Of a stretch of DNA of 27,528 bases, positions 4,567 to 18,932 are shown piece by piece. Source of the stretch: a virus; IMG/VR virus record IMGVR_UViG_3300007539_000155, positions 1-27,528 of that record. One strand, 5' to 3'. The stretch's first letter is position 1. Every line of letters starts with the position of its first letter. The notes under the pieces are model-generated. The model searched no databases. It saw only the letters and a program-made list of their open reading frames with translations, and was not told the origin of the DNA. A program made the position numbers and the translations under genes.

Positions 4567-5309
4567 AGCACGGAGAAGAAACAGCAGAAGAAATCGAAGC
4601 AGCATTCGTCGGCGTGAACAACGGCGTCAGCATGATCAGCAAGTTCAGAAGACGTCAGCCGACAGTCATCTGCGGGACTGGGCGCAGCGGCACGACTGCA
4701 CTTGCGCGCTGCTTCTTGAATAGCGACGACGTCAAGTTCGTCACGCAAGACGAAACTGACGGCAGCAATCTTGAAGTCATCGCGATGAACAAAGCGACTG
4801 TCGAATGTGACGCTGAAGCGTGGCGTGCGTTCAAAGAAGAACACGCTGTCGACGATTCTGAATTCGTCTGCAAACAACCGCGATTCGAAGAATTCATTGT
4901 GAAAGATGAAGACTTCAAATCTGTTTGGACTGGCGCGAACATCATCGTGATGACACGCGATCCGCATCTTGTCGCAACGCGGCAATGGTCGATCAACATG
5001 CATCAGTCAGGCAAGACGTTTACGGAACACGTCGCGTCATGTTTCGCTATCGCAAGACGATCGATCATGTGCGCAGCAGAAATGTCAGAACTGTGCGGCG
5101 TGCTTTTCGTTTCGTATGAAAAGCTGATCACGCAACCGCAGCAAGTCGCTGACGAAGTCAACGCGTGGTTCGGTCGCGAACGTCTGATGAAGAAAGCGAT
5201 GGCGAAATCGATCATGCCGAATAATCCGTATTATCTGGAACGTCAGACGCTTGGCTGGATGCGTCAGATGAAAGACATGAAAGAACGTCGCGCGCGCGGC
5301 GAACGCTGA
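4563..5309 (+). CDS. Sulfotransferase-like P-loop protein 1
   Basis: About 248 residues. Sulfotransferases move sulfate from PAPS to a hydroxyl or amine of a sugar, lipid or protein. The N-terminal PTVICGTGRSGTTALARCF fits the 5'-phosphosulfate-binding loop of the family. IIVMTRDPHLVATRQWS in the middle fits the 3'-phosphate-binding strand and helix, with Arg and Ser in the expected places. LFVSYEKLITQPQQV is the usual later strand and helix. I chose the ATG at 4563, which gives an ATGA overlap with the glycosyltransferase and is preceded by ACATC like many other starts here; an ATG at 4554 would add three residues. The next gene is a shorter relative. The acceptor is unknown, and PAPS would have to come from the host because no PAPS-making gene is visible. 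Confidence 0.65.
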   Translation: MKHGEETAEEIEAAFVGVNNGVSMISKFRRRQPTVICGTGRSGTTALARCFLNSDDVKFVTQDETDGSNLEVIAMNKATVECDAEAWRAFKEEHAVDDSEFVCKQPRFEEFIVKDEDFKSVWTGANIIVMTRDPHLVATRQWSINMHQSGKTFTEHVASCFAIARRSIMCAAEMSELCGVLFVSYEKLITQPQQVADEVNAWFGRERLMKKAMAKSIMPNNPYYLERQTLGWMRQMKDMKERRARGER

Positions 5310-5899
5310 TGTCATTCATCGTGAACAGCGACGTGCTTGTGATGGACGTGCCGAAGCGTGGCACATCTTCACTGATCGAAGCGATCACGCGCAAGCGCAT
5401 GTCGCTTGTTCATCTAGGTCAGCATCTGCCTGTCGACTGCAAGACGTGCAAGCACGCGATCGTTCTGCATCGTCATCCTGCTGCGTGGCTTCGTTCGCTG
5501 TGGTGCTATCGTCGCAGCAAAGCCTTCAACTGGCGGAGCGAATGGCACGTCGAACACGAACTGATCGAATGCTTCGGGCGCGAACGTCTTCAGTCGTTCG
5601 ACTTCTTCTGCGAAGCTGTCACGTATCGCGAACAGTGGGCTGACGACTTCGATCGTTCATTCACTGGCGCGATCAGATCAGATGCACACGTCGTCAGAAC
5701 TGAATCGCTGATCGATGACTTCGAAGCTGCGCTTCGCGCGTGCGGCTACGCTGACACGTTTGAACGATTACCTGCTGCGAATGTATCGCGCGATGTGCCT
5801 GACTTTCCTGACGGCTTCGAAGAAGCGCTGCATGCGCTGAATCGCGATCTGTATCATCGCATGAACTATGATGTGAAAGTGACTGGACAGATCGAATGA
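5309..5899 (+). CDS. Sulfotransferase-like P-loop protein 2
   Basis: 196 residues, starting at a TGATG overlap with the preceding gene. It has the same plan as its neighbour but is shorter and more diverged. VMDVPKRGTSSLIEAI near the N-terminus fits a PAPS-binding loop, and AIVLHRHPAAWLRSLWCYR fits the 3'-phosphate-binding strand and helix, where an Arg and a Ser are conserved in sulfotransferases. HVVRTESLIDDFEAAL resembles the late strand and helix (compare VSYEKLITQPQQV in the neighbour). The two are most likely distant paralogues rather than a fresh duplication, because identity is low outside the motifs. They may have different acceptors, or one may have lost activity. Confidence 0.55.
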   Translation: MSFIVNSDVLVMDVPKRGTSSLIEAITRKRMSLVHLGQHLPVDCKTCKHAIVLHRHPAAWLRSLWCYRRSKAFNWRSEWHVEHELIECFGRERLQSFDFFCEAVTYREQWADDFDRSFTGAIRSDAHVVRTESLIDDFEAALRACGYADTFERLPAANVSRDVPDFPDGFEEALHALNRDLYHRMNYDVKVTGQIE

Positions 5900-6209: not shown

Positions 6210-6589
6210 TGCTGAAGGATTTTCTACAGTCGCACGAAAGCAAGAACGACACGCAGCGAAGCATCGCAGACGCGCGCGGCGTCACGACTTCTGAATTCTG
6301 GATCGTGATCGTCATGCTGATCGCGTCTGTCTTCGGAGAAGCTGAAGGACTTTTCGGCGACAGTCACATCTTCGCGATCGCTGCTGTCACTGCTGCGCTG
6401 ATCTATAAGATCGGGCGCTTCGTGCTGAAATACAATCGAAGCAAGCACATCGACGACGTCGACACGCTGTCGCGCGAAATCGCTGAAACTGTCGACGATC
6501 TTGAAGCGACGATCGAAGACCTTCGCGCAGAAAATCTGCGCTTGATTCAAGAACGCAAAGAAGAAAGAACGACACATGAAGCGACTTGA
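6209..6589 (+). CDS. Holin candidate with two membrane segments
   Basis: 126 residues. Two hydrophobic stretches of roughly 15 to 20 residues, FWIVIVMLIASVFG (about 30-43) and FAIAAVTAALIYKIGRFVL (about 55-73), are separated by a short acidic turn. They are followed by a long charged C-terminal region with heptad-like spacing (ETVDDLEATIEDLRAENLRLIQE), probably a coiled coil. Holins form holes in the inner membrane at lysis. The call rests on the two membrane segments, the small size, the charged tail and the position directly before, and overlapping by 14 bases, the endolysin gene. Holins share little sequence, so another small membrane protein is possible. Confidence 0.6.
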   Translation: MLKDFLQSHESKNDTQRSIADARGVTTSEFWIVIVMLIASVFGEAEGLFGDSHIFAIAAVTAALIYKIGRFVLKYNRSKHIDDVDTLSREIAETVDDLEATIEDLRAENLRLIQERKEERTTHEAT

Positions 6590-7259
6590 TCTGTCGACAC
6601 TTGCTGTGCCTGACGCGAAGCTGATTCAGCACGGGCTGAAGGCGATGGGATACTACGACGGCACGACGCGCGGTCTGCCGGGACCGAAGACGAATGCTGC
6701 CTATGACAAGTTTCTTGAAGACATGTGGGAAGACGAAAGCGGCAGCGCGCCTGTCATCGTTCCCGATGTCGATGACAGCGGTCAGTCGATTCCCGATTTG
6801 ATGGCGTCGATCGCGCGAAGCAAAGTCGGTGTGCGCGAAGTGCCGAAGAATTCGAATCGCGGTCCTGACGTCGAAGAATTCCAGCGCGCGACGTGGCTTG
6901 ACGGCAGCGGCTGGGCATGGTGCGCAGCGTTCGTGTGCTGGGTCGTGAAGCAGATTCAAGATCGCGGCGTCGATCTGAAGTTCAAACGACCGCTGACTGC
7001 TGGCGCATGGGACTTCGAACGATGGGCGCGCGAACAGACGCTTCCCGTGAAACTGCACAAGCCGCGCACGAAGATCAAGAAAGGCGACATCGTCGTCTTC
7101 ACGTTCAGTCACATCGGCATCGCAGTCGAAGACGAAGCGAACGGCTACGTCAAGACTGTCGAAGGCAACACTGACAGCAGCGGCACACGCGAGGGCGGCG
7201 GCGTCTACGAACAGAAGCGCAAGACGTCGCTTGTCAGATCGAATATTCGTCTGATCTGA
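6576..7259 (+). CDS. Endolysin with CHAP amidase/peptidase domain
   Basis: 227 residues. It cuts peptidoglycan peptide or amide bonds at lysis. The first 50 or so residues (LIQHGLKAMGYYDG...GPKTNAAYDKF) resemble a peptidoglycan-binding type 1 helix repeat. A linker rich in Asp, Pro and Val follows, then a CHAP domain from about residue 72. Its catalytic triad can be placed: Cys116 in WAWCAAFV, His179 in FSHIGIAVE and Asn198 in VEGNTD. There is no signal peptide, so release through a holin is expected, in line with the preceding gene. The start overlaps the holin gene by 14 bases. This is the last gene of the structural/lysis block and is followed by a regulatory gap. Confidence 0.85.
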   Translation: MKRLDLSTLAVPDAKLIQHGLKAMGYYDGTTRGLPGPKTNAAYDKFLEDMWEDESGSAPVIVPDVDDSGQSIPDLMASIARSKVGVREVPKNSNRGPDVEEFQRATWLDGSGWAWCAAFVCWVVKQIQDRGVDLKFKRPLTAGAWDFERWAREQTLPVKLHKPRTKIKKGDIVVFTFSHIGIAVEDEANGYVKTVEGNTDSSGTREGGGVYEQKRKTSLVRSNIRLI

Positions 7260-7271
7260 CGCTTTTCAGCG

Positions 7272-7287
7272 TTGAAAATTTTTTCAA
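7272..7287. promoter_or_regulatory. Palindrome copy 1, TTGAAAATTTTTTCAA
   Basis: Seven-base arms TTGAAAA and TTTTCAA around TT, 12 bases after the endolysin stop and before the first early-type gene. It is one of six copies of the same motif in the window. It may be a protein-binding site or a weak RNA hairpin. Confidence 0.5.
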
Positions 7288-7302
7288 AAATCGTCGATTT
7301 CG

Positions 7303-7337
7303 TTCTTGTGCAGAACAAGAAAGTGCTGTTTTATAGT
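7303..7337 (+). promoter_or_regulatory. Candidate promoter with inverted repeat before SNF2 gene
   Basis: TTGTGC (7306-7311) and TTTTAT (7329-7334) are 17 bases apart; TATAGT at 7332-7337 is an alternative -10. The -35 overlaps an inverted repeat TTCTTGT / ACAAGAA (7303-7309 and 7315-7321), a possible operator. Just downstream, AGCGCATGAAGCGC (7343-7356) can fold into a small hairpin and matches the site after the 18973 promoter in 13 of 14 bases, which supports the call. Confidence 0.45.
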
Positions 7338-7378
7338 GACGCAGCGCATGAAGCGCGCACCGAAAAACATCACATCAC

Positions 7379-9097
7379 ATGAAAATCGATCTGAACAACA
7401 TCGCAAACTGGGGACAAGGCAAAGCAGTCACGACGCGCAACGGCAAGCGCGTTCTTCACACTGCGCCTGCAACGCAAGACTTCTGGTCTGTCTGGCGTGA
7501 TCACAAGAACGAACTGAAAGCTGCTGGCATTTCGTGCAGCAAAGATCGCAACACTGGCGAATGGCAAGCTTGCTGGTGGAAGCAAGACGTCGACGCTGCT
7601 GAAGCACGCGTTCAGTCACGCGCAGCAGTCGCTGACGACTTCTGCTTCCCGACTCCCGAAGGTCTGAACGCTTTCGACTATCAGAAAGCGGGCGTGCGAT
7701 ATGCACTGAATCACGACAGCGTGATGATCGCTGATGAAATGGGACTGGGAAAAACGATTCAAGCGATCGGTATCATCAACGCTGACGAATCGATCAAGCG
7801 CGCGCTGATCATCTGCCCTGCTTCGCTGAAGCTGAACTGGAAGAAAGAAATCAGCAAGTGGATGACGCGCGACATGACTGTCGCGATCGCGAACGGTGCT
7901 GACTTCCCTGAAGCTGACATCGTGATCATGAACTACGACATCGCTTCGAAGAACTTCGACGCGACGCACGCTGTTCAGTGGGATGCGCTGATTCTTGACG
8001 AAGCACACATGATCAAGAACGCGAAAGCGAAGCGCACGCAAGCGATCATCGGCAAGTGGGATCGCGACGAAGCGAAGAAGATTCCCGCGATCAGCGCACG
8101 TCGCAAGATCGTGCTGACTGGCACACCGATTCCCAATCGCCCGATCGAAGCTTTCACGATCTTGAACTACATCGCGCCCGACACGTTTCGCGGCGTGATC
8201 AGCTACGGCAAGAAGTTCTGCGGTGGGTTTCAAGGTGATCACGGATGGGACTTCAGCGGCGCTTCGAATCTTGAACAGCTTCAAGACTTGCTTCGCGAGA
8301 CGTGCATGGTGCGTCGTCTGAAAGCTGACGTGCTGACTGAACTTCCCGCGAAGACGCGCAGCACGATCGCACTTGATGGGTTCGACAAGTTCGTGAAGCG
8401 CGAACAGAAGATCATGAACGAATACGGAATCGAAAGCGTCGAAGACGCACGCAGCAACAGCGTCGCGTTCGAAGAACTTTCGAAAGTTCGTCACGAACTT
8501 GCAGTCGCGAAGATTCCCGCAGTGATCAAGCACGTCGAAGCGACGCTTGAAGGCACGAACAAAGTGATCGTGTTCGCACATCATCGCGACGTCGTCGACG
8601 GTCTGATGGACGCGTTCGGTGACGCTGCTGTGAAAGTCGTCGGTGGCATGTCTGCTGAAGACAAGAACGAAAGCGTCGAACGCTTTCAGAACGACGACAG
8701 CGTTCGCGTCTTCGTCGGAAACTTCATCGCTGCTGGCACTGGACTGACGCTGACTGCATCTTCGACTGTGATCATGGCTGAACTTGACTGGGTTCCCGGC
8801 AACGTCGCACAAGCTGAAGATCGCGCGCATCGCATCGGTCAGACTGACTGCGTGACTGTTCAGTATCTTGTCGCTGAAGGTTCGCTTGATCAGCGCATGG
8901 CTGACGTGCTTGCTTCGAAGCGCGAAGTGCAGCGCGCAGCGCTTGACGCTGGTTCGCTTCAGAACGAACAGCAGCGCGCGACTGATGCAGCAGCGAAGAA
9001 CGTGACTTCGATCGAAGTCAACGCTGTCACGAAGAAGACTGTCGACAATCGTCAGACTGTCGTGATCGATCTTGACAGCGCTGTCTGCCCTTTCTGA
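7379..9097 (+). CDS. SNF2-family DNA helicase/translocase
   Basis: 572 residues. An ATP-driven superfamily 2 enzyme that translocates on duplex DNA and may remodel forks or branched DNA. Motif I is DEMGLGKT (119-126), motif II is DEAH (207-210), motif III is LTGTPIPNRP, and motif VI is RAHRIGQ (482-488) after WVPGNVAQAED, the pattern typical of the SNF2 and SMARCAL1-like group. The first 75 residues form a small separate region with several Trp (FWSVWRDHKNELKAAGI, WQACWW) that may bind DNA. The C-terminal 70 residues are low complexity. It is the first gene after the lysis block, with its own candidate promoter, so it likely opens the replication region. The start ATG is preceded by CATCAC. 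A separate UvsW-like helicase is encoded at 22214. Confidence 0.85.
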   Translation: MKIDLNNIANWGQGKAVTTRNGKRVLHTAPATQDFWSVWRDHKNELKAAGISCSKDRNTGEWQACWWKQDVDAAEARVQSRAAVADDFCFPTPEGLNAFDYQKAGVRYALNHDSVMIADEMGLGKTIQAIGIINADESIKRALIICPASLKLNWKKEISKWMTRDMTVAIANGADFPEADIVIMNYDIASKNFDATHAVQWDALILDEAHMIKNAKAKRTQAIIGKWDRDEAKKIPAISARRKIVLTGTPIPNRPIEAFTILNYIAPDTFRGVISYGKKFCGGFQGDHGWDFSGASNLEQLQDLLRETCMVRRLKADVLTELPAKTRSTIALDGFDKFVKREQKIMNEYGIESVEDARSNSVAFEELSKVRHELAVAKIPAVIKHVEATLEGTNKVIVFAHHRDVVDGLMDAFGDAAVKVVGGMSAEDKNESVERFQNDDSVRVFVGNFIAAGTGLTLTASSTVIMAELDWVPGNVAQAEDRAHRIGQTDCVTVQYLVAEGSLDQRMADVLASKREVQRAALDAGSLQNEQQRATDAAAKNVTSIEVNAVTKKTVDNRQTVVIDLDSAVCPF

Positions 9098-9119
9098 TCG
9101 ACAAGCGACAAGAATCGAC

Positions 9120-9159
9120 GACATTTCAATCAGCGCGCGTCAGCAAGTCTGACGCGCGC
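9120..9159 (+). promoter_or_regulatory. Promoter-like GACATT box followed by strong hairpin
   Basis: GACATT at 9120-9125 is followed by TCAATCAG, like the boxes of the promoter family at 11514, 18996 and 21162, but no TTG lies 17 bases upstream (TTGACA at 9072 is too far for this box). At 9133-9159 a perfect 11-base inverted repeat GCGCGCGTCAG / CTGACGCGCGC with loop CAAGT would sit at the RNA 5' end. No U-run follows, so it is not a terminator. It may be an RNA-stability or translation-control element for the Ycf46-like gene. Confidence 0.4.
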
Positions 9160-9189
9160 ATCATCAACAACAGAACAACAGAACGACAC

Positions 9190-10863
9190 ATGACTGAAGA
9201 AACAAACAATCGCGCGAAGTTCATGCGCGAACTTGAAATCTTGCACTACGCTGGAATCGGCGTCGTGCTGGTAAGAACACGCGAAGAAGCACGCGCACTG
9301 ACAGCGATCGAAGATTTCGCTTTCGAACACGGGCTTCACTTTCGTCACTGGAACACGCGCGATGGCTGGACATACTACGACAACGAAATCGCGAAGTCTG
9401 ACGGTCAGATCGACCCGATCGGCGCGCTGAACGGTGTGCTTGACGTAGGCACTGAAGAACAGCAGCGCAAGCCGATGCCTGAAGGCGTCTACGTGATGAA
9501 CGATGCTCACTACATTCTGGGCAAGAATCCGATGCTGATTCGCGGCATCAAAGAATATTCGAAAGTCTTTTCGAACAACGAATATCGTCTGATCATCACA
9601 GTGCCTGAAGGGTTCGAATGTCCTGAAATGCTTGCGACTGACGTGTCGATCATCGACTTCGATCTGCCTTCGCGAAACGAACTTGCTGACACGCTGGACA
9701 AAGCGATTCGCAGCAGCTTCGTCGACGACAACGGTCAGCCGATGGCATACGAAGAACCGTATGACGAAGATGAACGTGCGCGCATTCTGAATGCAGCGAT
9801 CGGCATGACAGCGATCGAAGCTGAAAGCGCGATGGCGCGCAGCATCGTTCAGAACGAAGCGACGTGGCCCGACACACCTGTCGAAGACTTCATGCGTGTG
9901 ATCATGTCGACGAAAGTCGAAGTCATCAAACGCAGCAACGTGCTTGAACTGCACAGCACGCTTGATCCGTGGAAGCTTGGCGGATTCGATCGTCTGAAAG
10001 AATGGGTGATGAAGCGAAAGAAGACGTTCACGCCCGAAGCGCTTGAATTCGGTGCGCGTGCGCCGAAAGGCATCGGACTGTTCGGCGTGCCGGGAACGGG
10101 CAAGTCGCTTGCTGCAAAGATCGTCGCGCATCTTCTTGGCATGCCGCTGATTCGATTCGACGTCAGTCGCGTCTTCAGTTCGCTTGTCGGCAGCACTGAA
10201 CAGCGCGTGCGTGCTGCGCTGAAGATGATCGAAGCGATGTCGCCTTGCGTCGTGTGGGTCGATGAAGTCGACAAAGCAGGGCTTGATCAGAACGGCAGCG
10301 GCGGCGACAGCGGCGTCAGCGATCGCGTTCTTCAGTCGCTGCTGACGCACATGGCGGAATCACAGAAGCAGACGTTCTGGATTTTCACAGCGAACAGAAC
10401 TGCGAAGCTTCCGCCTGAAATGCTGCGCAAGGGACGACTTGAACAGCTTTTCAACGTCGCGCCGCCGAATCGAATCGAACGTCGTGAAATCATCGACATT
10501 CATCTGAAGCTTCGCAATCACAGCATCGACGACATCGACGACATCGACAGCGTCGTCGACGGCAGCGTCGGCTACGTCGGCGCAGAACTTGAAGCTGCTG
10601 TGAACAGCGCGATCACGATTGCGTTCAGTGACGATGTCGACGTGACAGGCGAACTGCTTCTTGAACAGCTTCGTGAATCTGTCCCGATTCGTGAAGCATT
10701 CGCTGAAGATTTCGAAGCAATGCGCGACTGGGCTGACAAGAATGCTGCGCCTGTGTCGACGCCTGATCCTGACGACACTGAAGATGTCGGCGCGAAGAAG
10801 ATCACAAACAAAAGCGGCAAGCGACGCGTGCGTCGTTCGCGCGCTGTAACTATGGAAGGCTGA
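9190..10863 (+). CDS. Ycf46-like AAA+ ATPase
   Basis: 557 residues. The N-terminal 250 or so residues are a non-catalytic domain (IGVVLVRTREEARALTAI near 23-40). The AAA+ module follows, opened by LGGFDRLKEWVMKRK (263-277) and KGIGLFGVPGTGKS (Walker A 299-306). SPCVVWVDEVDKAG holds Walker B (354-361), and MLRKGRLEQLF (411-421) holds the arginine-finger region. This order and the spelling of the motifs match Ycf46, an AAA+ family of cyanobacteria and red-algal plastids whose function is not settled. The C-terminal 80 residues are acidic, then basic. The gene is followed within 3 bases by an unknown gene and then by DUF1257 and DUF2997 genes, a grouping I recall from cyanobacterial neighbourhoods. 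It could remodel a protein complex with those partners. It does not look like a DNA-helicase loader. Confidence 0.75.
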   Translation: MTEETNNRAKFMRELEILHYAGIGVVLVRTREEARALTAIEDFAFEHGLHFRHWNTRDGWTYYDNEIAKSDGQIDPIGALNGVLDVGTEEQQRKPMPEGVYVMNDAHYILGKNPMLIRGIKEYSKVFSNNEYRLIITVPEGFECPEMLATDVSIIDFDLPSRNELADTLDKAIRSSFVDDNGQPMAYEEPYDEDERARILNAAIGMTAIEAESAMARSIVQNEATWPDTPVEDFMRVIMSTKVEVIKRSNVLELHSTLDPWKLGGFDRLKEWVMKRKKTFTPEALEFGARAPKGIGLFGVPGTGKSLAAKIVAHLLGMPLIRFDVSRVFSSLVGSTEQRVRAALKMIEAMSPCVVWVDEVDKAGLDQNGSGGDSGVSDRVLQSLLTHMAESQKQTFWIFTANRTAKLPPEMLRKGRLEQLFNVAPPNRIERREIIDIHLKLRNHSIDDIDDIDSVVDGSVGYVGAELEAAVNSAITIAFSDDVDVTGELLLEQLRESVPIREAFAEDFEAMRDWADKNAAPVSTPDPDDTEDVGAKKITNKSGKRRVRRSRAVTMEG

Positions 10864-10866
10864 ACT

Positions 10867-11502
10867 ATGATCAGACTGCAATACGGCACAGAAAACAACA
10901 TCAGCAGCGAAGCGAAAGCACACTTCTTCGTGTGGAACGGCATCGCTGAAAAACAGATCGGCGTCGCGACGCGTGACGAATCATTCCCTGTGTCGCTTGT
11001 GGCGGGACAGTATGCGAAGAACCCTGCGTGCAAAGACATGACTGCTGAAGTCGGCGGCTGCATCGTCAGCGCAGCGTTCGACGTGAAAGAAGGCACGCTG
11101 TTCAAGCTGCATGCGAACGTGAAGAAGTATCAAGGTCTGCCGAAGTGCGCGTCAGTCATGCTGCGCGCACGTGCTGACGGGCCGCTGACTGAACTTCGTC
11201 TGAAGCTGATCGATGCACCGAATTCGAACTTCACTGAACTTGTCAGTCAAGGTCGCTTCGAACGCATCACGCTTGATGAAGCGAAAGCGTTCGGCTACAG
11301 ATGCGCGCCAGCGTTTGAAAAATTTTTCAACGAAGACGCGATCGACGACTGCTTCGACTTCAAAGTGATCGACGCAGGCAAGCCGAAAGCTGAACTGACG
11401 TTCGAAGAATACGAAGACACGCAGACAGGCGAAAAGATCATTCGCACGAAAGCTGTCGAACGTCGTCGAATCATCCTTCGCAGAAAGCCTTTGAAGCGCT
11501 GA
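10867..11502 (+). CDS. Unknown protein in the Ycf46/DUF1257 cassette
   Basis: 211 residues, not recognised. The N-terminal half is beta-rich with small residues (EVGGCIVSAAFDVKEGTLFKLHANV). The C-terminal half is helical and charged, ending in a basic tail RRRIILRRKPLKR. Four Cys are scattered without zinc-finger spacing. There is no membrane segment or signal peptide. It starts 3 bases after the ATPase gene, so the two are surely co-transcribed and may interact. An exact palindrome TTGAAAAATTTTTCAA (11315-11330) is embedded in the codons for FEKFF. A candidate promoter for the next gene overlaps the stop codon region. Confidence 0.6.
   Translation: MIRLQYGTENNISSEAKAHFFVWNGIAEKQIGVATRDESFPVSLVAGQYAKNPACKDMTAEVGGCIVSAAFDVKEGTLFKLHANVKKYQGLPKCASVMLRARADGPLTELRLKLIDAPNSNFTELVSQGRFERITLDEAKAFGYRCAPAFEKFFNEDAIDDCFDFKVIDAGKPKAELTFEEYEDTQTGEKIIRTKAVERRRIILRRKPLKR
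11315..11330. promoter_or_regulatory. Palindrome copy 2, perfect 16 bases, inside a gene
   Basis: TTGAAAAATTTTTCAA is an exact palindrome within the 211-residue gene. It is the same motif as the copies at 7272, 13349, 15967, 18933 and 24040. Being in coding sequence, it argues against a pure terminator role. Confidence 0.45.
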
Positions 11503-11528
11503 CAAAGAAGCGCGATATTCAGATTCAC
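11491..11528 (+). promoter_or_regulatory. Candidate promoter for the DUF1257 gene
   Basis: TTGAAG (11491-11496), a 17-base spacer containing GACAAAGAAGC, and GATATT (11514-11519), followed by CAGATTCAC. The 28 bases at 11501-11528 match those at 18983-19010 in 23 positions, including the spacer and the tail, and both copies carry TTG at the same distance. The predicted RNA start is near 11526, about 29 bases before the ATG. Confidence 0.5.
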
Positions 11529-11554
11529 CCTGAACCCAAAAGAAAGAAGACATC

Positions 11555-12112
11555 ATGTCACACACAGCAACAGTGAAGACTGCACAGTTCAAAGATGCGC
11601 AAGACATCGTGAACGCGTGCAAAGAACTACAGAAAGACGGCGTCAACTGCTACGTCGAATTCAACGCAGTCCCGCGAATGTGGACTGAAAATCAGATCGG
11701 TCGTGATCTTGGCTACGACAAGCATCCGACTGACGAATGTGAAGTCGTCGTGCGAATCCCTGATGCGTTCTATGACGTCGGCTTCATTCGAACTGAAGAA
11801 GGCAATCTGATGCCCGTGTTCGACGACTACAACGGACAAGCGATGATGCGTCACGACAACATGGGCAGCAAGCCTGTGCGTGATGTTCTTGGTGCGAAGT
11901 TCGAAGGTCGCATCGAACACTGGAACGGACTTCGCGAAGAAAGCGAAGACAACGAAGGCAGTCAGCAGCTTCGTCACAGCATCGGTCGTCTGATGCAGGG
12001 CATTCACAAGTCGCAAGCGATTCGTCGTGCGCAAGCGATGGGACACTACGTCATGGGAAGCACGACTGACGAAAACGGTCACGTGCATGTCAAGGTCGGC
12101 ATCCCTGACTGA
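11555..12112 (+). CDS. DUF1257 (Ycf35-like) protein
   Basis: 185 residues. The opening MSHTATVKTAQFKDAQDIVNA is the hallmark of DUF1257, known as Ycf35 in plastids and cyanobacteria, followed by the usual cysteine-bearing CKELQKDGVNCYVEF region. A predicted alpha/beta fold with VVVRIPDAFYDVGFIRTEEGNLMPVFDDY continues the match. The C-terminal helix with KSQAIRRAQAMGH and a final strand TDENGHVHVKVGI also fit. The molecular role of the family is unknown. It sits between the unknown protein of the Ycf46 cassette and a DUF2997 gene, and appears to have its own promoter. The start is preceded by AAGACATC, a leader seen at other starts in the window, with only a weak purine stretch (AAAGAAAGAAG) in place of a ribosome-binding site. 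Confidence 0.75.
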   Translation: MSHTATVKTAQFKDAQDIVNACKELQKDGVNCYVEFNAVPRMWTENQIGRDLGYDKHPTDECEVVVRIPDAFYDVGFIRTEEGNLMPVFDDYNGQAMMRHDNMGSKPVRDVLGAKFEGRIEHWNGLREESEDNEGSQQLRHSIGRLMQGIHKSQAIRRAQAMGHYVMGSTTDENGHVHVKVGIPD

Positions 12113-12145
12113 TCGAACTGAACGACAACTGCGAACAACACTATC

Positions 12146-12361
12146 ATGAAGACAATCACAATTCACATTTCCCCGATCGGCGACGTCGACATCGAAGCTG
12201 ACGGCTTCAACGGTGTCGGCTGCAAAGACGCGACGAAAGGCTACGAAGAAGAATTCGGCGGCGACACTGTTTCGAAAGCGAAGCCTGAATTGCACAACAC
12301 GATCGACACTGAAAACGAACGTCACCTGAACGCAGGCGGCGGCATCACTTCAATCGACTGA
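12146..12361 (+). CDS. DUF2997 small protein
   Basis: 71 residues. MKTITIHISPIGDVDIEADG, then FNGVGCKDATKGYEEEFGG, matches the DUF2997 pattern: a short strand, a Pro-x-Gly turn, a GFxGxxC motif and a helix ending in GG. Members are small proteins of unknown function, found next to DUF1257/Ycf35 genes in cyanobacteria as I recall. The single Cys in VGCKDAT is the conserved one. The tail after residue 50 is low complexity and poorly ordered. It lies 33 bases after the DUF1257 gene and is almost certainly in the same transcript. Confidence 0.7.
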   Translation: MKTITIHISPIGDVDIEADGFNGVGCKDATKGYEEEFGGDTVSKAKPELHNTIDTENERHLNAGGGITSID

Positions 12362-12470
12362 ATCGACGCACGTGCTGCGCGCTGCTGCGCGATCTACGCT
12401 TCAAACGCGTGACGACAGCAGCGACGCAGACGACGCGTCAGAACGCAAACCAGAAGCAAGACATCACATC

Positions 12471-12863
12471 ATGAAAGAACAGATCATCAGCATCGCGCCA
12501 GACGGCACGATCTACGGACTAGACTTCAAGTCGAAGGGCGTGTCACTGCGCGACTTCGGCGAATGTGAAATCGAACGCGTGACGTCGATCGAATGGAACG
12601 CTGAACGACAGAAGTGGTTCATCAAGTGGACGTGTGCGCGACACATCGTCGATCGCGACGAAGAAGTCATCTGGACTGACAAGACGTTCAGCGACGCTGG
12701 CTTCATCGACGTCACTGAATTCGACGGCAACATCGATCACGATGAAAGCTGCGAACGTATGGCAGAACACGACGTCATCTTCTTCGAACACTACGAAGAC
12801 GCGAACGCTGCTGAAGTCGCTGTCATTCAGTCGCTGCGCTTGCACGGCAAGCTTGCTGCGTGA
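12471..12863 (+). CDS. Conserved small phage-type protein
   Basis: 130 residues. The frame is open back to 12372, but the ATG at 12471 is preferred: the upstream part is low complexity and CATCACATC directly precedes the ATG, as at other starts here. IISIAPDGTIYGLDF followed by LRDFGECEIERVTSIEWN and WFIKW resembles a small protein family I have seen in phages and bacteria (PDGT near the start, an IxRVTxIE strand, a WF pair, then a helix of the VIFFEHYEDANAAEVAVI type). Function is unknown. The middle holds acidic residues and two Cys. It closes the Ycf46 cassette and precedes the structured leader of the replication initiator. The gap 12362-12470 holds GC-rich short repeats and nothing else that I can name. 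Confidence 0.6.
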   Translation: MKEQIISIAPDGTIYGLDFKSKGVSLRDFGECEIERVTSIEWNAERQKWFIKWTCARHIVDRDEEVIWTDKTFSDAGFIDVTEFDGNIDHDESCERMAEHDVIFFEHYEDANAAEVAVIQSLRLHGKLAA

Positions 12864-12868
12864 ACCTT
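12840..12868 (+). promoter_or_regulatory. Weak promoter candidate for the replication initiator
   Basis: TTGCAC (12840-12845) and AACCTT (12863-12868) are 17 bases apart, and the second box matches the local GAYMTT consensus in five of six positions. The spacer does not resemble the other family members. The predicted RNA start near 12875 would fall in the first hairpin of the leader. Confidence 0.25.
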
Positions 12869-12869
12869 A

Positions 12870-12960
12870 TCTGCGCCAAACAACAACAACTGCCGCCCCG
12901 TTCGCGATGGCGCAGAAAAAAGCCGCACTGTCTTTCGTAGCGAACGATCGACAGTGCGGC
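12870..12960. promoter_or_regulatory. Two-hairpin leader between genes
   Basis: Hairpin 1 has arms TCTGCGCC (12870-12877) and GGCGCAGA (12909-12916) around a loop rich in CAACAACAAC. Hairpin 2 has perfect arms GCCGCACTGTC (12922-12932) and GACAGTGCGGC (12950-12960), with a small inner TTCG/CGAA pair in the loop. Between them is a run of six A. On the + strand no U-run follows, so it looks like a structured 5' leader of the initiator gene. Confidence 0.5.
12916..12960 (-). terminator. Terminator-like signal for the opposite strand
   Basis: Read on the minus strand, the perfect 11-base stem GCCGCACTGTC / GACAGTGCGGC is followed directly by six T (12921 down to 12916), the layout of an intrinsic terminator. 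No minus-strand gene is visible, so it would stop antisense transcription or end a small antisense RNA. Confidence 0.45.
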
Positions 12961-12988
12961 TGAATTCAACAACAGGAACAACAACAAC

Positions 12989-14164
12989 ATGCCATCCGAC
13001 AGGAATGACGTCAACCCCGCTGACATAGTTTTTCAACGCGACTTCACACGACACTTGCTTCGACACTGGCTGAAGCATCTGACAGGCTGCGAAGCTGCGT
13101 GCGTCTTGTTCATCTTTGATCGCACGATTCAGTGGGGCAAGATGCACGAACGAATCCCGATCAGACACTTCACTGACGGCATCGTCAGTCGTGATCTGAA
13201 AGTTCACAGCGAAGGCGTCAACTACAGCAGACGACAAGTCATGAACGCGCTTGCTGCACTTGAAGCAGGCGGCTTGATCGAAGTGTCTTCGACATCAGCG
13301 ACTGCACCGAAGCTGTTCGGTCTTCGCGTCGAAGCGAACGAAGACGAATTGAAAAATTTTTCAAACATGAAGAAGATCATCACACCGAAGCGACTGAAGA
13401 ACGCTGCACCAACTGGTGCAGAAACTGCACAAGTGAAGCACGAAACTGGTGCAGAAACTGCACCAACTGGTGCAGAAACTGCACCACATAAGAGAAGAAA
13501 AGAAAAGAAGACGAAAACTTCAAAAGAAAAGAAACTGGGTTCGCCTGACGGCGAACAGACGCTGTCTTCTGTCGAAGAACGAATCGCAGCACGACAGTCA
13601 GAACGTGAAGCAAAGCGTCAGCAGTATCTGAAGCAGAACAGAACACTGCTGAAGAAAGAACTGTCGCGCTTCTGGTCAGACACGATCGCGAACTATCATG
13701 CAGACATGCGTTCGCTTCGACTGAACATCGCACAGACGTCTGCGCTTTACGGCAAGCAGAAGAAGTTCGTCGTCGCGATGCATGAAGAATCATTCACTGC
13801 GTTCATCGACTTCAGCATCGCGCACTGGCACAACATCGTCGCAAGCACGTTTCACTGGATGACTGACGCACCGCAGCTTGTCGACGCGTGGTTCTTCTTG
13901 AAGCATTTCGACAAGTTCTTCGCAGTCTACGAAAAGCGCGATCGTCTTCTGAACGAATGGCAGAATGCTGTCGACGCGCCGACGAAAGACGAAGTCGAAT
14001 CAGAAGCTGTGCGTCGCGAACGTCAGAAGCTTGAACGCGAACGTCAGAAGCTTGAAATCGAACGACAGAAAGGAAGACGTGTTGCTAGTGTAGCAAAGAA
14101 GCGCGATCTTTCGAAATCACTGAACGACGGTGAATTCAAATTCAACGAAGACGACGACGAATGA
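12989..14164 (+). CDS. Replication initiator, phage O-like winged-helix protein
   Basis: 391 residues. The N-terminal 110 residues form a winged helix like phage replication protein O: FTRHLLRHWLKHLTG, RTIQWGKMHERIPIRHFTDG, then YSRRQVMNALAALEAGGLIEV as recognition helix and wing. A linker with PTGAETA repeats and a very basic stretch HKRRKEKKTKTSKEKK follows. A helical C-terminal region (about 200-330, Trp-rich IAHWHNIVASTFHWM) ends in a coiled coil with ERQKLERERQKLEIERQK. O-type proteins bind iterons at the origin and recruit the helicase. The next genes are a loader candidate and a DnaB-like helicase, which supports the call. The DNA of the linker contains iteron-like repeats, as in the lambda O gene. 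The start follows CAACAACAAC with AGGA 14 bases upstream; the stop overlaps the next gene as ATGA. Confidence 0.65.
   Translation: MPSDRNDVNPADIVFQRDFTRHLLRHWLKHLTGCEAACVLFIFDRTIQWGKMHERIPIRHFTDGIVSRDLKVHSEGVNYSRRQVMNALAALEAGGLIEVSSTSATAPKLFGLRVEANEDELKNFSNMKKIITPKRLKNAAPTGAETAQVKHETGAETAPTGAETAPHKRRKEKKTKTSKEKKLGSPDGEQTLSSVEERIAARQSEREAKRQQYLKQNRTLLKKELSRFWSDTIANYHADMRSLRLNIAQTSALYGKQKKFVVAMHEESFTAFIDFSIAHWHNIVASTFHWMTDAPQLVDAWFFLKHFDKFFAVYEKRDRLLNEWQNAVDAPTKDEVESEAVRRERQKLERERQKLEIERQKGRRVASVAKKRDLSKSLNDGEFKFNEDDDE
13349..13364. promoter_or_regulatory. Palindrome copy 3, next to the iteron-like repeats
   Basis: TTGAAAAATTTTTCAA, an exact 16-base palindrome inside the initiator gene, 46 bases before the first iteron-like repeat. 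Its A/T content stands out from the surrounding sequence. Confidence 0.45.
13411..13484 (+). repeat. Three iteron-like 20-base repeats, candidate origin
   Basis: AACTGGTGCAGAAACTGCAC occurs exactly at 13411-13430, 13444-13463 and 13465-13484, with starts 33 and 21 bases apart. Each unit contains the inverted repeat TGCAG/CTGCA, and copies 1 and 3 also form GCACCA/TGGTGC. An A-rich tract (13486-13540) follows directly. Repeats inside an initiator gene next to an A/T-rich stretch are the layout of the lambda origin. Confidence 0.5.
14082..14120 (+). promoter_or_regulatory. Candidate internal promoter before the loader gene
   Basis: TTGCTA (14082-14087), 17 bases, GATCTT (14105-14110), with CAAAGAAGC in the spacer as at 11491 and 18973. 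It lies in the last codons of the initiator gene, where AKKRDL codons could produce part of the match by chance. Confidence 0.3.
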
Positions 14165-14709
14165 ACGACACAGAATTCGAAGAAGCGATGAAGCGCGCAG
14201 GCGTGCGGCACTTCTATCGCGATCGCGACAAGCGACTGTCGCACTATCTTGACAGCGAAGATCATGAATTGATGAAGTTCATGAAGAAGAAAGCGAACGT
14301 GATCGACGCGATTCGCGAACACAATCAGCACATCGTCATCGTCGATCATGATGGCAACGGTCAGCACGTGACGAACATGCTAGTGCGCGGCTTGCTGCTG
14401 TATTCGATTTCGACTTCGCTGACTTCACTGCCGAAGTTGATCGACATCGTCAGCGACTACGAACGACGCGCGCACGTGATGGAAGAAATCGAAGACACTG
14501 AAGTCTTCGCTGTGCTGATGGCACACACGAAGCACGTCGTCGATGCATCGCGCGTCGAATCACTACTGCGTGAAGCAATCGCTGACGGCGCTGTGCTGCT
14601 GCTTCACGTCGAACTGCCGATCGAATCTTGCGACACATTCAGTCAGTCGTTCAGACAGATGATCGCTTCGAACTGTCATCAATTCTTTCTGGAAAAATCA
14701 TGTCACTAG
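14161..14709 (+). CDS. Candidate helicase loader with eroded P-loop
   Basis: 182 residues. Not clearly recognised by sequence. The order initiator, this gene, DnaB-like helicase is that of a DnaC-type loader. IVIVDHDGNGQHVTNMLVRGLLLYSIS (about 58-84) looks like a strand, loop and helix of a P-loop ATPase in which the GKT is lost. HVMEEIEDTEVFAVLMAHTKH could be the Walker B strand region without the usual acidic pair in place, and MIASNCHQFF resembles the sensor strand near the end. If so it is a loader that no longer binds ATP itself. It begins at an ATGA overlap and its stop lies 10 bases into the helicase gene. Alternative: an unrelated replication accessory protein. Confidence 0.4.
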   Translation: MNDTEFEEAMKRAGVRHFYRDRDKRLSHYLDSEDHELMKFMKKKANVIDAIREHNQHIVIVDHDGNGQHVTNMLVRGLLLYSISTSLTSLPKLIDIVSDYERRAHVMEEIEDTEVFAVLMAHTKHVVDASRVESLLREAIADGAVLLLHVELPIESCDTFSQSFRQMIASNCHQFFLEKSCH

Positions 14710-15956
14710 GCACACAATTCATTCGCGCATGTCTTCGTGACAACAACACAGGTCTTCTTCGTGAAGCGAAGAAGAAGCTTTTCATCGGCGACGACGAAGA
14801 ACACTGCTTCGACTTCGTCACGTCGCATCTGTCTGACTACGGCACACTGCCTGACAAGCAAGTGATCGAAGAAGCAGGCGTGCCGATCGCACGTCGCGCG
14901 AAACAACCCGCGCAGTTCTATCTTGATCGACTGCGCAAGCGATTCGTCTTCGCACAGATCAATTCTGAAATGCCCGACTTCCGCGCAGCGATGGAAAGTG
15001 AAGACGTCGAATCAGCAGTGCAGCACATGCGCACGATGATCGCAGGCGCGACAGAACAGCTTCAGCCGAATTCATTCGCTACGCTTGACACGCTTGCTGA
15101 AGAAGTGCGTGCAGACTACGAACACGCGAAGCTTCATCCGGGTCTGCGCGGCATCACGCTAGGCTGGCCGACACTTGATGCGCTGACACTTGGCGCGCAA
15201 GGCGGCGACTTGATCGTCGTCGCTGGAAGGACGGGCATGGGCAAGTCATGGGTGCTGTCGAAGATGGCGCACGAATCATGGCTGTCAGGTCACAGCATTC
15301 TGTTCGTGTCGATGGAAATGTCGCTTGTGCCGATCGCGCGTCGCTTCGTCGGTCTGCACAGCGGCATCAATCCGAACTATATTCGCGCAGGGCATCTGTC
15401 GTCGCAGGGTGAACAGAAGCTGCTTCAAGAACTCGAAGACATCACAGCGACAGGCGCGAACGCATTCTTCTTGTCGGGCGACTTCAAAAAAGAAGTCAGC
15501 GCGATCGAAGAAATGGTCAGCGAATTCGACTGTGAAATCATCTACATCGACGCAGCGTATCTGTTGAGTCCGACAGCGAAGCGCGGCGGCAGCATCACAC
15601 GATGGGAACAGATTGCGACAGTCGTTCAAGAACTGAAGCAGCTTGCGCTGAAAACGAACAAGCCGATCGTCATCAGCGTGCAGATGAATCGCAACGTGAA
15701 GAAGCGTTCGACGAAGTCACTGGACACGGGCGACATCGCAGGCAGTGACAGCATCCCGCAAGACGCGTCGATCGTCTTCGGTCTGCGACAAGGACCGTCG
15801 CCTTTTGAGAAGACGCGACGCATCGGCGAACTGATGAAGAATCGCGAAGGCGAAGAAGCGCGCATCGACTTCAACTTCAAGTTCGCGCCAGTCGACATGT
15901 CAGAAGCGCCGATCGTCGAAGAAAAAGAAATGAACGATGTGAACTACATGCTTTGA
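14700..15956 (+). CDS. dnaB: DnaB-like replicative helicase
   Basis: 418 residues. A hexameric 5'-3' helicase that opens the fork. The N-terminal 120 residues are helical and would bind primase or loader. The RecA-like core holds VVAGRTGMGKSWVLSKMA (Walker A 176-183), ILFVSMEMSL (the SxEM motif of the DnaB family) and EIIYIDAAYLLSP (Walker B). VISVQMNRNVKKRSTKS leads into GSDSIPQDASIVFGLRQ, the DNA-binding loop and sensor region. The frame is open upstream to 14628, but the ATG at 14700 is preferred: it follows AAAATC, begins MSLGTQFIRACL like phage DnaB proteins, and overlaps the previous gene by only 10 bases. Walker B reads YIDAA rather than the usual acidic-rich form. Confidence 0.85.
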   Translation: MSLGTQFIRACLRDNNTGLLREAKKKLFIGDDEEHCFDFVTSHLSDYGTLPDKQVIEEAGVPIARRAKQPAQFYLDRLRKRFVFAQINSEMPDFRAAMESEDVESAVQHMRTMIAGATEQLQPNSFATLDTLAEEVRADYEHAKLHPGLRGITLGWPTLDALTLGAQGGDLIVVAGRTGMGKSWVLSKMAHESWLSGHSILFVSMEMSLVPIARRFVGLHSGINPNYIRAGHLSSQGEQKLLQELEDITATGANAFFLSGDFKKEVSAIEEMVSEFDCEIIYIDAAYLLSPTAKRGGSITRWEQIATVVQELKQLALKTNKPIVISVQMNRNVKKRSTKSLDTGDIAGSDSIPQDASIVFGLRQGPSPFEKTRRIGELMKNREGEEARIDFNFKFAPVDMSEAPIVEEKEMNDVNYML

Positions 15957-15966
15957 TCGACTATCT

Positions 15967-15982
15967 TTGAAACAATTTTCAA
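15967..15982. promoter_or_regulatory. Palindrome copy 4, imperfect, before the polymerase
   Basis: TTGAAACAATTTTCAA lies between the helicase stop and the polymerase ATG at 15987. Outer arms TTGAAA and TTTCAA are kept, with one mismatch inside. It would cover the ribosome-binding region of the polymerase gene. Confidence 0.4.
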
Positions 15983-15986
15983 CAAC

Positions 15987-18932
15987 ATGAACGAAGAAGA
16001 AGAAGAAATCGAAGACATCATCGTCAAGGGAAGTGACGATGCAGAACTGATCGTGCTGACAGATGCGCCACTGCGCACAAGCTTCGATCAAGGCAAAGTG
16101 ATGACGAAGCACGAACTTGCGCTGTTCGGTGAACACGCGAAACGAAACGGCTTTAATCCGAAGAAGACAGCGTTCATCACGCCTTGTGCGCCGATCCCGA
16201 AAGCAGCGCAGTCGACTGAAAAGAAAGTCGGCGACTTCTTGGCGAAGTATCACGACGCAGTGCATGAAGCGATCGCACGCTTCACTGAAGCGAAGCTGAT
16301 GATCTACTTCGGCAAAGACGCAGGCAGACAGTTCACAGGCAGACCCGTCAGGATCACGCAAGCGTGCGGCAGTCTTGATCATCCGAAGAACTACGACTTC
16401 GCTGTGCTGCCTATGCTGTCGCCGCGAAACGTGCTGCGACGTCCGCATCTGAAGCAGCAGTTCGAAACTGACTTCTTGATTGCTGGCACGTATCGCGAAA
16501 GCGACTGGGAAGATGACGTGTTCGAAGGCGCGTCGCGTGAAGCGAACTACGAATGGCGCGACGATCTTCAGTTCTTGATCGACATGAAACCGAAGAAGCT
16601 TGTCGTCGACACAGAAACTGTCGGCTTGAAGTGGTTCGCAGATCAGCGCGTGCTGTGCGTTCAATTCTGCTGGGCGAAAGGCAAAGCGTGCGCTGTGCCA
16701 TTCGATGTCGACTACGGCAAGAAAGTCTTTGGCGACGACTTCAATCAAGACGATGTCGACAGACTTGTGAAGCAGACGAAGAAGATTCTGTCTCGCAAGT
16801 CGACGGGCGTCGTCGGTCACAATTTCAAGTTCGATCTTCATGCACTGAAGAACTTCGACATCGATGTCGCGAACTTCGCGCATGAAACGATTCAGCTTGC
16901 ATACACTGCTGACGACAACATGGAATCGAAGTCGCTTGATCACTGCGTTCGTCGATGGGTTCCCGAAATGGCTGGCTATGCTGACGAATTCAACAAGTCG
17001 CCCGTTCACAAGAAGAAGTCGCGCATGGATCTTGTCGCGCCCGACGACATGCTGTTCTACGGCTGCGGCGACGTCGACGCCACGTTCAGACTTTGCACGA
17101 ATCTTCTGCGTGTCTGTCGCGAAGATACGAAGAACTTCAACGTGTATCAGCGCGTCAAGATGCCAGCGATCCGCAAGACGTTCTTCGAATGCGAACGCAA
17201 CGGCTATCACGTCGATCGTGATGCGCTGATGAAGATGCGTGACTTCGTGTTCGAAGAAGAAGAACGACTGTATCACGAACTGATTCAAGACGTGCCAGCA
17301 GCAGTGAAGCGTCGATGGCTGAACAAGCCGAAAGAACAGAAGAAGTCGCCGCGCGAAGTGCTGTCGTTCACACGCGATGCATTCACTGTCGACGTGCTAT
17401 TCAGCGAAGACGGATTCGGTCTGACGCCTGTCGTGTTCACTGACAGCACGAAGAATCTTGAACCATACGAAGACGAAGCAGGCAACTGGGTCGACCCGCG
17501 CGTGCCTTCTGCTTCGATCAAGACACACTTGCCGCTGTTCGATCACGACTTCGTGACGACGCTGATCGACTACAAGAAGATTCTGAAATACATCAGCACG
17601 TATGTCGGTAGTCCGCAGACAGCAGAGAAAGAAACTGTGAAGCTGCTGAAGTCGCGAAAGTATCCGAAAGCGATTCAAGACATCTTCGCGAACGCAGACG
17701 TCGAACTGCCCGTGATCCCGAAGAAGAACGAAGTGACGCGCTTCATCAGATTGCCGAAAGACGTCGTGCCGAAGCCAGTCAACATCATCATCGGAATCCC
17801 GAAAGATGAAGACGGCAGTCGCATCGACTACGCGCGCATGTCGAACGACACTATCATGCGCAGAATCGTCACGCCCGACAGCGGATTCTTCAAACATCTG
17901 ACGCCTGACGGTGACATGATTCACCCGTCGCTTCATCTTCATCGCACAGTGACAGGCAGAACATCGTCGTCTGATCCGAACGCGCAGAACTTCCCGAAGC
18001 GTGGCGAAATGGCGAAGCTGTTTCGATCTGTCTTCAAGCCGAAGCCGGGATGGGTGATGCTTGAATGTGACTTGTCGCAGATCGAACTGCGCATCGCTGC
18101 GTGGATGGCGCATGAAACGACGATGCTGCAAATCTATCAAGACGGCGGCGACATTCACGCATATACAGGCGCGAACGTCGCAGGCATCGATCGCGACTTC
18201 TTCTTGTCACTAGCAGGCAGCGAAGATGAATTCGACGCACACGCTGTCGGCTACGAAGGCAGAAAGCTTGATGGCGTCAAGACGATGGGCGACTTCTTCG
18301 ATCGCTTCAGATACTACGCGAAAGCTGTGAACTTCGGGTTCATTTACGGCATGTGGTGGGTGAAGTTCAAAGACTACGCGAAGACTGACTACGGCATCGA
18401 ACTGACAGATCGCGAAGCTGAACGCATGCGTGAATCGTTTTTCGAAACGTATCCCGGCTTGAACGACTGGCACTGGAACATGAAGAACTTCGCTGAAGCG
18501 AACGGCTACGTGCGCAGCTTGCATGGCGGTCTTCGCAGACTGCCCGACATCTACAGCAACGACGAAGCTGTGCAAGGCGAAGCGAAGCGTCAGGCGATCA
18601 ACGCGCCAGTGCAGCACTTCGCTTCTGATCTTGGCGTCATGGGCTTGAATCGATTCACGCGCGACTGCCCGAAAGAAGTGATTCAGCCGATCGGCTTCGT
18701 TCACGATGCAGGCTACATTCAAGCGCGCGAAGACTATGCACTTGAAGCAGCAGGCGCGATCAAGTTCTACATGCAGACGAACCCGCTTCAAGCGTGGTTC
18801 AATCTGAACCCGCCGATCCCGCTGACTGCTGACGTGTCTGGCCCTGCTGACAACATGGCAGACATGAAAGAAATGAAAGGGCTTGAAGCGTTTCAGCCTG
18901 ACTGGTATCGCGCTGATCTTGATGCAGCGTGA
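15987..18932 (+). CDS. Family A DNA polymerase with UDG-like N-terminal domain
   Basis: 981 residues, the main replicative polymerase. Residues about 18-165 resemble the uracil-DNA-glycosylase superfamily (ELIVLTDAP, NPKKTAFITPCAPIP, LMIYFGKDAG), but the usual His of the HP motif is Ser145 in LSPRNVLRRP, so cleavage is doubtful. A 3'-5' exonuclease follows: Asp208 and Glu210 in VVDTET, GHNFKFDLH, and YGCGDVDATF. Polymerase motif A is DLSQIELR starting at Asp695. Motif B is RYYAKAVNFGFIYG (Arg775, Lys779, Phe783, Tyr787), where Phe783 matches E. coli Phe762. Motif C is FVHDAGY with Asp907, in which the common Glu is Ala908. There is an insertion before the palm (PREVLSFTRDAF to VDPRVPSASI). 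All main catalytic residues are present. It lies between two copies of the TTGAAAA palindrome. Confidence 0.9.
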   Translation: MNEEEEEIEDIIVKGSDDAELIVLTDAPLRTSFDQGKVMTKHELALFGEHAKRNGFNPKKTAFITPCAPIPKAAQSTEKKVGDFLAKYHDAVHEAIARFTEAKLMIYFGKDAGRQFTGRPVRITQACGSLDHPKNYDFAVLPMLSPRNVLRRPHLKQQFETDFLIAGTYRESDWEDDVFEGASREANYEWRDDLQFLIDMKPKKLVVDTETVGLKWFADQRVLCVQFCWAKGKACAVPFDVDYGKKVFGDDFNQDDVDRLVKQTKKILSRKSTGVVGHNFKFDLHALKNFDIDVANFAHETIQLAYTADDNMESKSLDHCVRRWVPEMAGYADEFNKSPVHKKKSRMDLVAPDDMLFYGCGDVDATFRLCTNLLRVCREDTKNFNVYQRVKMPAIRKTFFECERNGYHVDRDALMKMRDFVFEEEERLYHELIQDVPAAVKRRWLNKPKEQKKSPREVLSFTRDAFTVDVLFSEDGFGLTPVVFTDSTKNLEPYEDEAGNWVDPRVPSASIKTHLPLFDHDFVTTLIDYKKILKYISTYVGSPQTAEKETVKLLKSRKYPKAIQDIFANADVELPVIPKKNEVTRFIRLPKDVVPKPVNIIIGIPKDEDGSRIDYARMSNDTIMRRIVTPDSGFFKHLTPDGDMIHPSLHLHRTVTGRTSSSDPNAQNFPKRGEMAKLFRSVFKPKPGWVMLECDLSQIELRIAAWMAHETTMLQIYQDGGDIHAYTGANVAGIDRDFFLSLAGSEDEFDAHAVGYEGRKLDGVKTMGDFFDRFRYYAKAVNFGFIYGMWWVKFKDYAKTDYGIELTDREAERMRESFFETYPGLNDWHWNMKNFAEANGYVRSLHGGLRRLPDIYSNDEAVQGEAKRQAINAPVQHFASDLGVMGLNRFTRDCPKEVIQPIGFVHDAGYIQAREDYALEAAGAIKFYMQTNPLQAWFNLNPPIPLTADVSGPADNMADMKEMKGLEAFQPDWYRADLDAA

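Follow-up and report, generated by a model that had tools for sequence, protein, structure and literature searches.

We analysed a viral DNA stretch of 27,528 nucleotides (IMG/VR virus record IMGVR_UViG_3300007539_000155; hereafter the window), a 27.5 kb fragment, and found that five of its genes form a real, conserved cassette. They encode a classic AAA ATPase, a protein that we call X, divergent DUF1257 (Ycf35-type) and DUF2997 proteins, and a further small protein (G5, the fifth; Table 1). With a little better than even confidence, we read this cassette as encoding a phage form of an AAA+ complex for protein remodelling that is widespread and so far undescribed. A sequence-only reading of the window had already proposed a functional unit kept by selection, perhaps an ATP-driven remodelling complex, and had singled it out as a candidate for an undescribed system. 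Its observations were borne out except for a promoter, and its interpretation is supported in part: selection for the unit agrees with the gene order conserved in several phage groups, the co-location in bacteria and plasmids, and one gene fusion; the predicted ATP-hydrolysing site is intact; and remodelling itself, which we infer, is probably right. A search of the open-access literature, with subscription papers mostly outside its reach, returned no description or functional study of the ATPase-DUF1257-DUF2997 module, as that reading had supposed.

The ATPase pairs a predicted active AAA domain with a degenerate one

The window ATPase has the hallmarks of an active classic AAA domain: Walker A (GVPGTGKS) and Walker B (DEVDK) motifs, a sensor-1 asparagine (N402), Arg fingers (R413/R416), and a pore loop (SLVG). 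Catalytic residues are kept in 103-106 of 106 aligned relatives, with the Walker A Lys, Walker B Glu, sensor-1 Asn and Arg416 invariant across all 106, and the active site is predicted to be intact for ATP hydrolysis. The N-terminal half aligns to the C-terminal AAA half (hhalign E = 1.1e-6, probability 91), and neither a Walker A motif nor a P-loop was found in this half of the window protein or its relatives. On this match it classes as a degenerate AAA-like domain, predicted to be inactive, which we take to be a defining feature of Ycf46. The pore loop across relatives mostly has the form [K/S/G]-[L/F/Y/W]-V-G, typical of polypeptide-threading AAAs (Cdc48/Vps4), and the closest solved structures by sequence are Cdc48/p97 and FtsH. 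A homologue on a cyanobacterial plasmid shares 31.7% identity with the window ATPase over 92%. The Pfam search found no vWA family among the cassette proteins, which sets the cassette apart from MoxR/CobS-type AAA systems with a vWA partner.

The partner proteins

Profile searches upheld the earlier AAA, DUF1257 and DUF2997 assignments, that of DUF1257 by way of relatives. Alone, the window DUF1257 protein scores 13.4 bits, below the Pfam (PF06868) cut-off of 22.2; it aligns over 98% of its length to the annotated DUF1257 of Rhizobium phage RHph_I4 (4e-17), five of seven aligned relatives match Pfam DUF1257 (best 3.9e-9), and the copy in an X-containing cassette of Paracoccus sp. MKU1 reaches 26.3 bits, above the cut-off. 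We place it in the family by this full-length homology to model-matching proteins together with the MSH start, which the window protein has and which is present in 32 of 38 DUF1257 proteins. Its structure model (predicted local distance difference test score, pLDDT, 87) had no PDB match by Foldseek. In two Planctomycetota loci (L164 and L165), the N-terminus of the DUF1257 variants is hydrophobic and probably spans a membrane; the operon there also holds zinc-ribbon-like, TPR-like and T2SSE-type ATPase genes.

The window DUF2997 protein belongs to its family on its own score (32.3 bits vs. a cut-off of 24.1, PF11211), and G23 and C26 of its GxxC motif are invariant among 32 aligned sequences. 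X matched no family above threshold in Pfam, PHROGs and further family searches, and its viral sequence matches are phage homologues. AlphaFold2 predicts an all-beta domain (pLDDT 85) followed by a basic tail of low confidence, and Foldseek found no PDB match to the fold. Sequence profiles of X, DUF1257 and DUF2997 likewise gave no credible solved relative; a DUF2997 profile match to a surface protein (0.006) was judged to be chance.

Conservation among phages

The order AAA-X-DUF1257-DUF2997-fifth gene recurs in Rhizobium phages RHph_I4 and L338C and Aeromonas phage HJ05; Pseudomonas phage SM1 has it too, interrupted by one inserted gene. In all four, tail/lysis genes lie on one side of the cassette and DnaB/Pol I genes on the other. 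AAA-X-DUF1257-DUF2997 is also kept in Rhodobacter phage RcKickapoo and Agrobacterium phage JP1, where an extra gene precedes DUF1257 and G5 comes further downstream. Both DUF families are already named in the GenBank entry for RHph_I4, with no function given.

Beyond these examples, we counted partners in 89 viral loci, using a distance limit of 8 kb and counting divergent DUF1257 and DUF2997 relatives in. Of these loci, 80 are contigs gathered with the ATPase as sole query; the others are the window and eight loci of annotated phages. Both DUF1257 and DUF2997 were found in 41/89 loci, and in 35 of these the pair shares a strand and lies within about 2 kb. Alternative partners, STIRPG (~290 residues) and/or MPCDT (~114 residues, with HSHDGG near its end), were found in 36/89 (e.g. 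L008, L053, L083), including relatives of mycobacteriophage Corndog; no locus had both partner sets, and eight had neither. The alternative partners were ruled out as detectable relatives of the usual ones (MPCDT vs. DUF1257, probability 0.5%; STIRPG vs. DUF3150, 2%; X vs. STIRPG, 0.1%). X was present in 17 loci, all of which also held DUF1257, DUF2997 and the fifth gene; G5 is further found after DUF2997 in Verrucomicrobia loci.

A tree of the ATPases groups the X loci in a single well-supported clade, which also takes in L022, a locus with X undetected; the alternative-partner loci likewise make up one clade. Because the DUF1257/DUF2997 loci spread over the rest of the tree, whose root is unknown, their distribution suggests that this pair is the older partnership.

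Conservation in bacteria and plasmids

To count gene neighbourhoods beyond phages, we sampled bacterial genomes of four phyla by the DUF1257 model alone. DUF1257 is rare in random genomes, with matches in 6/145, 18/199, 1/349 and 0/199 genomes, counts that include three reference genomes chosen by AAA. With those three removed, DUF2997 lay ≤3.3 kb from DUF1257 in 24/24 new loci, and the ATPase lay ≤3.3 kb away in 18/24, a count that rises to 21/24 at a distance of about 5 kb; of the three loci without a nearby ATPase, one is cut by a contig end, and DUF3150 is present in several of the remaining loci. Co-occurrence of the ATPase, DUF1257 and DUF2997 is far above chance. These families had been described in the sequence-only reading as known mainly from cyanobacteria and plastids, a view that our results do not support: the operon also occurs in Planctomycetota, Verrucomicrobiota and Pseudomonadota and on plasmids of Bacillota and Actinomycetota.

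Plasmids of Pseudanabaena, Geminocystis, Planktothrix, Paenibacillus and Bacillus carry the trio with DUF1257 and DUF2997 annotated, that of Pseudanabaena in the order GrpE-Hsp70-DUF1257-DUF2997-AAA, where two further genes separate DUF1257 from DUF2997; GrpE-Hsp70 genes also lie near a related ATPase in Ferrigenium. Rhodococcus, Paenarthrobacter and IncC plasmids have the trio as well, with a DUF1257-like gene that is unannotated and was found by profile (weakly in Rhodococcus). The divergent copy on IncC plasmid pBK13048-1 (L150:5980-8568) consists of AAA, a 109-aa protein, a DUF1257-like protein beginning 'MSHIVKGK', and DUF2997, located just upstream of type IV secretion system (T4SS) genes; this IncC region is present in 59 of 5426 complete E. 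coli genomes. A plasmid of Nostoc sp. C052 (L170:7074-7640) encodes a 188-aa DUF1257-DUF2997 fusion with both domains above their Pfam cut-offs, and the ATPase gene follows downstream after one small gene. A second apparent fusion, in L143, proved to be a frame-shifted assembly and was left out of the counts.

A proposed remodelling complex

We propose that the ATPase would form a ring and draw polypeptide through its pore, a step suggested by the resemblance of its pore loop to that of Vps4/Cdc48-type AAAs. DUF1257 and DUF2997 may together serve as a single constant adaptor linking the ring with its clients. The third position differs between lineages (X in that of the window, DUF3150 elsewhere), and X could be the client-specific or targeting subunit of the window phage lineage. 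The complex would probably be produced along with the phage replication genes and, during infection, may remodel a protein complex of the phage or of its host. The GrpE-Hsp70 genes near the trio on the cyanobacterial plasmid and near the related ATPase in Ferrigenium fit a remodelling function. The argument grows weaker at each stage, from a module whose motor appears intact, through remodelling, to a phage role beside replication that the position of the cassette suggests.

Several points weigh against this proposal. The pore residue in the window is Leu, which is non-aromatic, and no fusion of the ATPase to any partner was found. The neighbours vary widely (replication genes, radical SAM, T4SS genes, Hsp70), so the context does not single out one client. 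Because X occurs in a single phage clade and nowhere else, the case for it as a targeting subunit is positional only; and the remodelling, adaptor and client-subunit roles are all predicted from genes and sequence.

We also noted a C-terminal tail, [RK]x0-1[LIVM]x[LIVMF] (e.g. in L169:3504-5629 and L166:4252-7381), on 58/118 AAA, 9/14 X, 5/13 DUF3150 and 7/28 STIRPG proteins vs. 46/985 other genes. The pattern was defined after looking, and homology among the AAA rows inflates the significance of the difference. A held-out check in six plasmid loci, a small set, was suggestive only, and the window X falls outside the strict pattern. A shared tail on unrelated module proteins may perhaps mark a common docking peptide or site. 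A wider proposal, which we hold to be possible and rather unlikely, is that the Ycf46-type ATPase, Ycf35 (DUF1257) and DUF2997 would make up one ancient AAA+ complex common to plastids, bacteria, conjugative plasmids and phages; its constant two-protein adaptor would be combined with interchangeable client subunits that dock via a C-terminal tail also found on the motor.

Alternative explanations

The module might instead maintain or activate a redox or metal-dependent enzyme (radical-SAM/4Fe-4S or ferredoxin-linked), with the DUF2997 Cys and the DUF1257 N-terminal His as metal or thiol ligands. Radical-SAM activase genes adjoin the trio in Paenibacillus, Rhodococcus, Paenarthrobacter, Accumulibacter, Nitrosomonadales, Verrucomicrobia and several large phages, a cyanobacterial cluster joins DUF2997, ycf35 and fed7 (PMC4284462), and both the invariant Cys26 and the frequent MSH start would suit such ligands. 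We nonetheless consider this improbable: six complete records of X-cassette phages have no PF13353 radical-SAM match, which separates them from radical-SAM-linked modules, no radical SAM or ferredoxin gene was found among the window-fragment genes searched, and divergent DUF2997 relatives are without the Cys.

A role in conflict, blocking host defence or excluding competing phages or plasmids, is to our minds similarly improbable. The module does travel on phages, conjugative plasmids and other mobile elements, and in bacteria it has kinase-AAA and FGE genes next to it, a setting reminiscent of conflict neighbourhoods; but its place beside replication genes is fixed across the whole phage clade, unlike that of typical swapped defence genes, and PADLOC matches only the generic AAA part (IetA, 73 bits), with no protease partner annotated nearby. 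The cassette is set apart from IetAS, in which IetA has a subtilase-type partner, IetS: scans of seven proteins returned no other family of defence partners, and those window proteins that were scanned gave no match to a protease family.

Less probable still is a dedicated helper of the phage replisome or of recombination that loads or unloads a helicase or disassembles protein-DNA complexes. The cassette lies directly upstream of putative initiator, DnaB and Pol I genes in phages, genes for single-stranded DNA-binding protein and other mobile-element functions lie near the trio in Verrucomicrobia, and X and the ATPase both end in basic tails; yet the trio elsewhere stands beside T4SS, Hsp70 or T2SSE genes where replication genes are absent, and DUF1257 and Ycf46 occur in plastids. 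Finally, that the genes are unrelated neighbours by chance in one phage lineage, as an order inherited within close phages might allow, is refuted for the DUF1257-DUF2997-AAA trio, and for the trio only, by co-location across phyla in loci found by DUF1257 alone and by the DUF1257-DUF2997 fusion, and is overall very hard to credit.

Organisation of the cassette and neighbouring genes

The open reading frames (ORFs) of the cassette (window 9190-12863) follow one another on the + strand with short gaps, as had been read from the sequence, and a codon-usage gene call favours all five. For G5, the likely start is ATG 12471 rather than GTG 12372. The earlier placement between lysis and replication genes agrees with family searches of the window proteins, which identified a CHAP lysin (at 6576) and an SNF2-type helicase upstream and DnaB-like and Pol I genes downstream. 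The promoter that had been predicted at 11491 did not hold up: a consensus scan of 7200-15000 found no sigma-70-like site, vs. 2.8 in shuffles.

Table 1. Genes and domains of the cassette, in window coordinates.
Feature	Position	Strand	Basis
AAA ATPase, 557 aa	9190..10863	+	Pfam AAA 3e-29; phrog_8638 3e-139
ATPase residues 1-245, predicted AAA-like domain without P-loop	9190..9924	+	N half/C half profile-profile match; Walker A absent in relatives
X, 211 aa, predicted all-beta domain (residues 1-170) and basic C-terminal tail	10867..11502	+	No family above threshold
Divergent DUF1257 (Ycf35-type) protein, 185 aa, start MSH	11555..12112	+	Homology to RHph_I4 DUF1257, 4e-17
DUF2997 protein, 71 aa, conserved GxxC	12146..12361	+	Pfam DUF2997 9.4e-8, above cut-off
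Fifth protein (G5), about 130 aa	12471..12863	+	phrog_38408 1e-12

Elsewhere in the window, the N-terminal part of the Pol I protein (15987-18932) weakly matches family-4 uracil-DNA glycosylase (E = 0.006), and the same domain is noted in the Pol I record of phage SM1. A family-2 glycosyltransferase gene, a sulfotransferase gene and one more gene (3646-5899) follow a tail protein with a phage depolymerase C-terminal domain; the third gene looks sulfotransferase-like by eye, with no family match. Long open frames on the minus strand that face real genes (e.g. 9130-10350 and 15900-17288) are probably an artefact of codon usage and could mislead gene finders.

Significance and comparison with known systems

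The roles of ycf35, DUF2997 and, largely, ycf46 are still open in cyanobacteria and plastids, and the union of these families in one mobile module means that its function can be sought in simple genetic systems, since phages of Pseudomonas aeruginosa and Rhodobacter capsulatus that carry it are culturable. The same comparison flags an uncharacterised backbone module of IncC resistance plasmids.

Among known systems, Ycf46 (Slr0374) of cyanobacteria and plastids shares with the phage ATPase the annotated superfamily of SpoVK/Ycf46/Vps4-type AAAs, whereas the phage protein has a phage-specific partner, X, and no photosynthesis context. Knockout of ycf46 in Synechocystis lowered the activity of the carbonic anhydrase EcaB, according to PMC7496141, which cites Jiang 2015, and ycf35 and ycf46 are among the genes that tend to be missing from the plastids of freshwater red algae (PMC5940233). 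The cyanobacterial Ycf35/DUF1257-DUF2997 cluster likewise has DUF1257 adjoining DUF2997; it contains the fed7 ferredoxin and no AAA gene, whereas the phage cassette contains AAA, X and the fifth gene and no ferredoxin. The AAA-ATPase of mycobacteriophage Corndog, from which few peptides were detected by mass spectrometry (PMC4351075), is of the same family (29% identity in cluster O phages, over a match that covers 69% of the window protein) but has STIRPG/MPCDT as partners, with no DUF1257 or DUF2997. Threading AAAs of the Cdc48/p97, FtsH and Vps4 types resemble the phage ATPase in their classic AAA domain, Arg fingers and pore loop; the phage ATPase differs in having one predicted active AAA domain, an N half without a P-loop, and other accessory proteins. 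The DUF3150-containing AAA loci of phages and bacteria have DUF3150 in the third position, where the window cassette has X, and share with it the same ATPase family accompanied by DUF1257 and DUF2997 or their divergent relatives.

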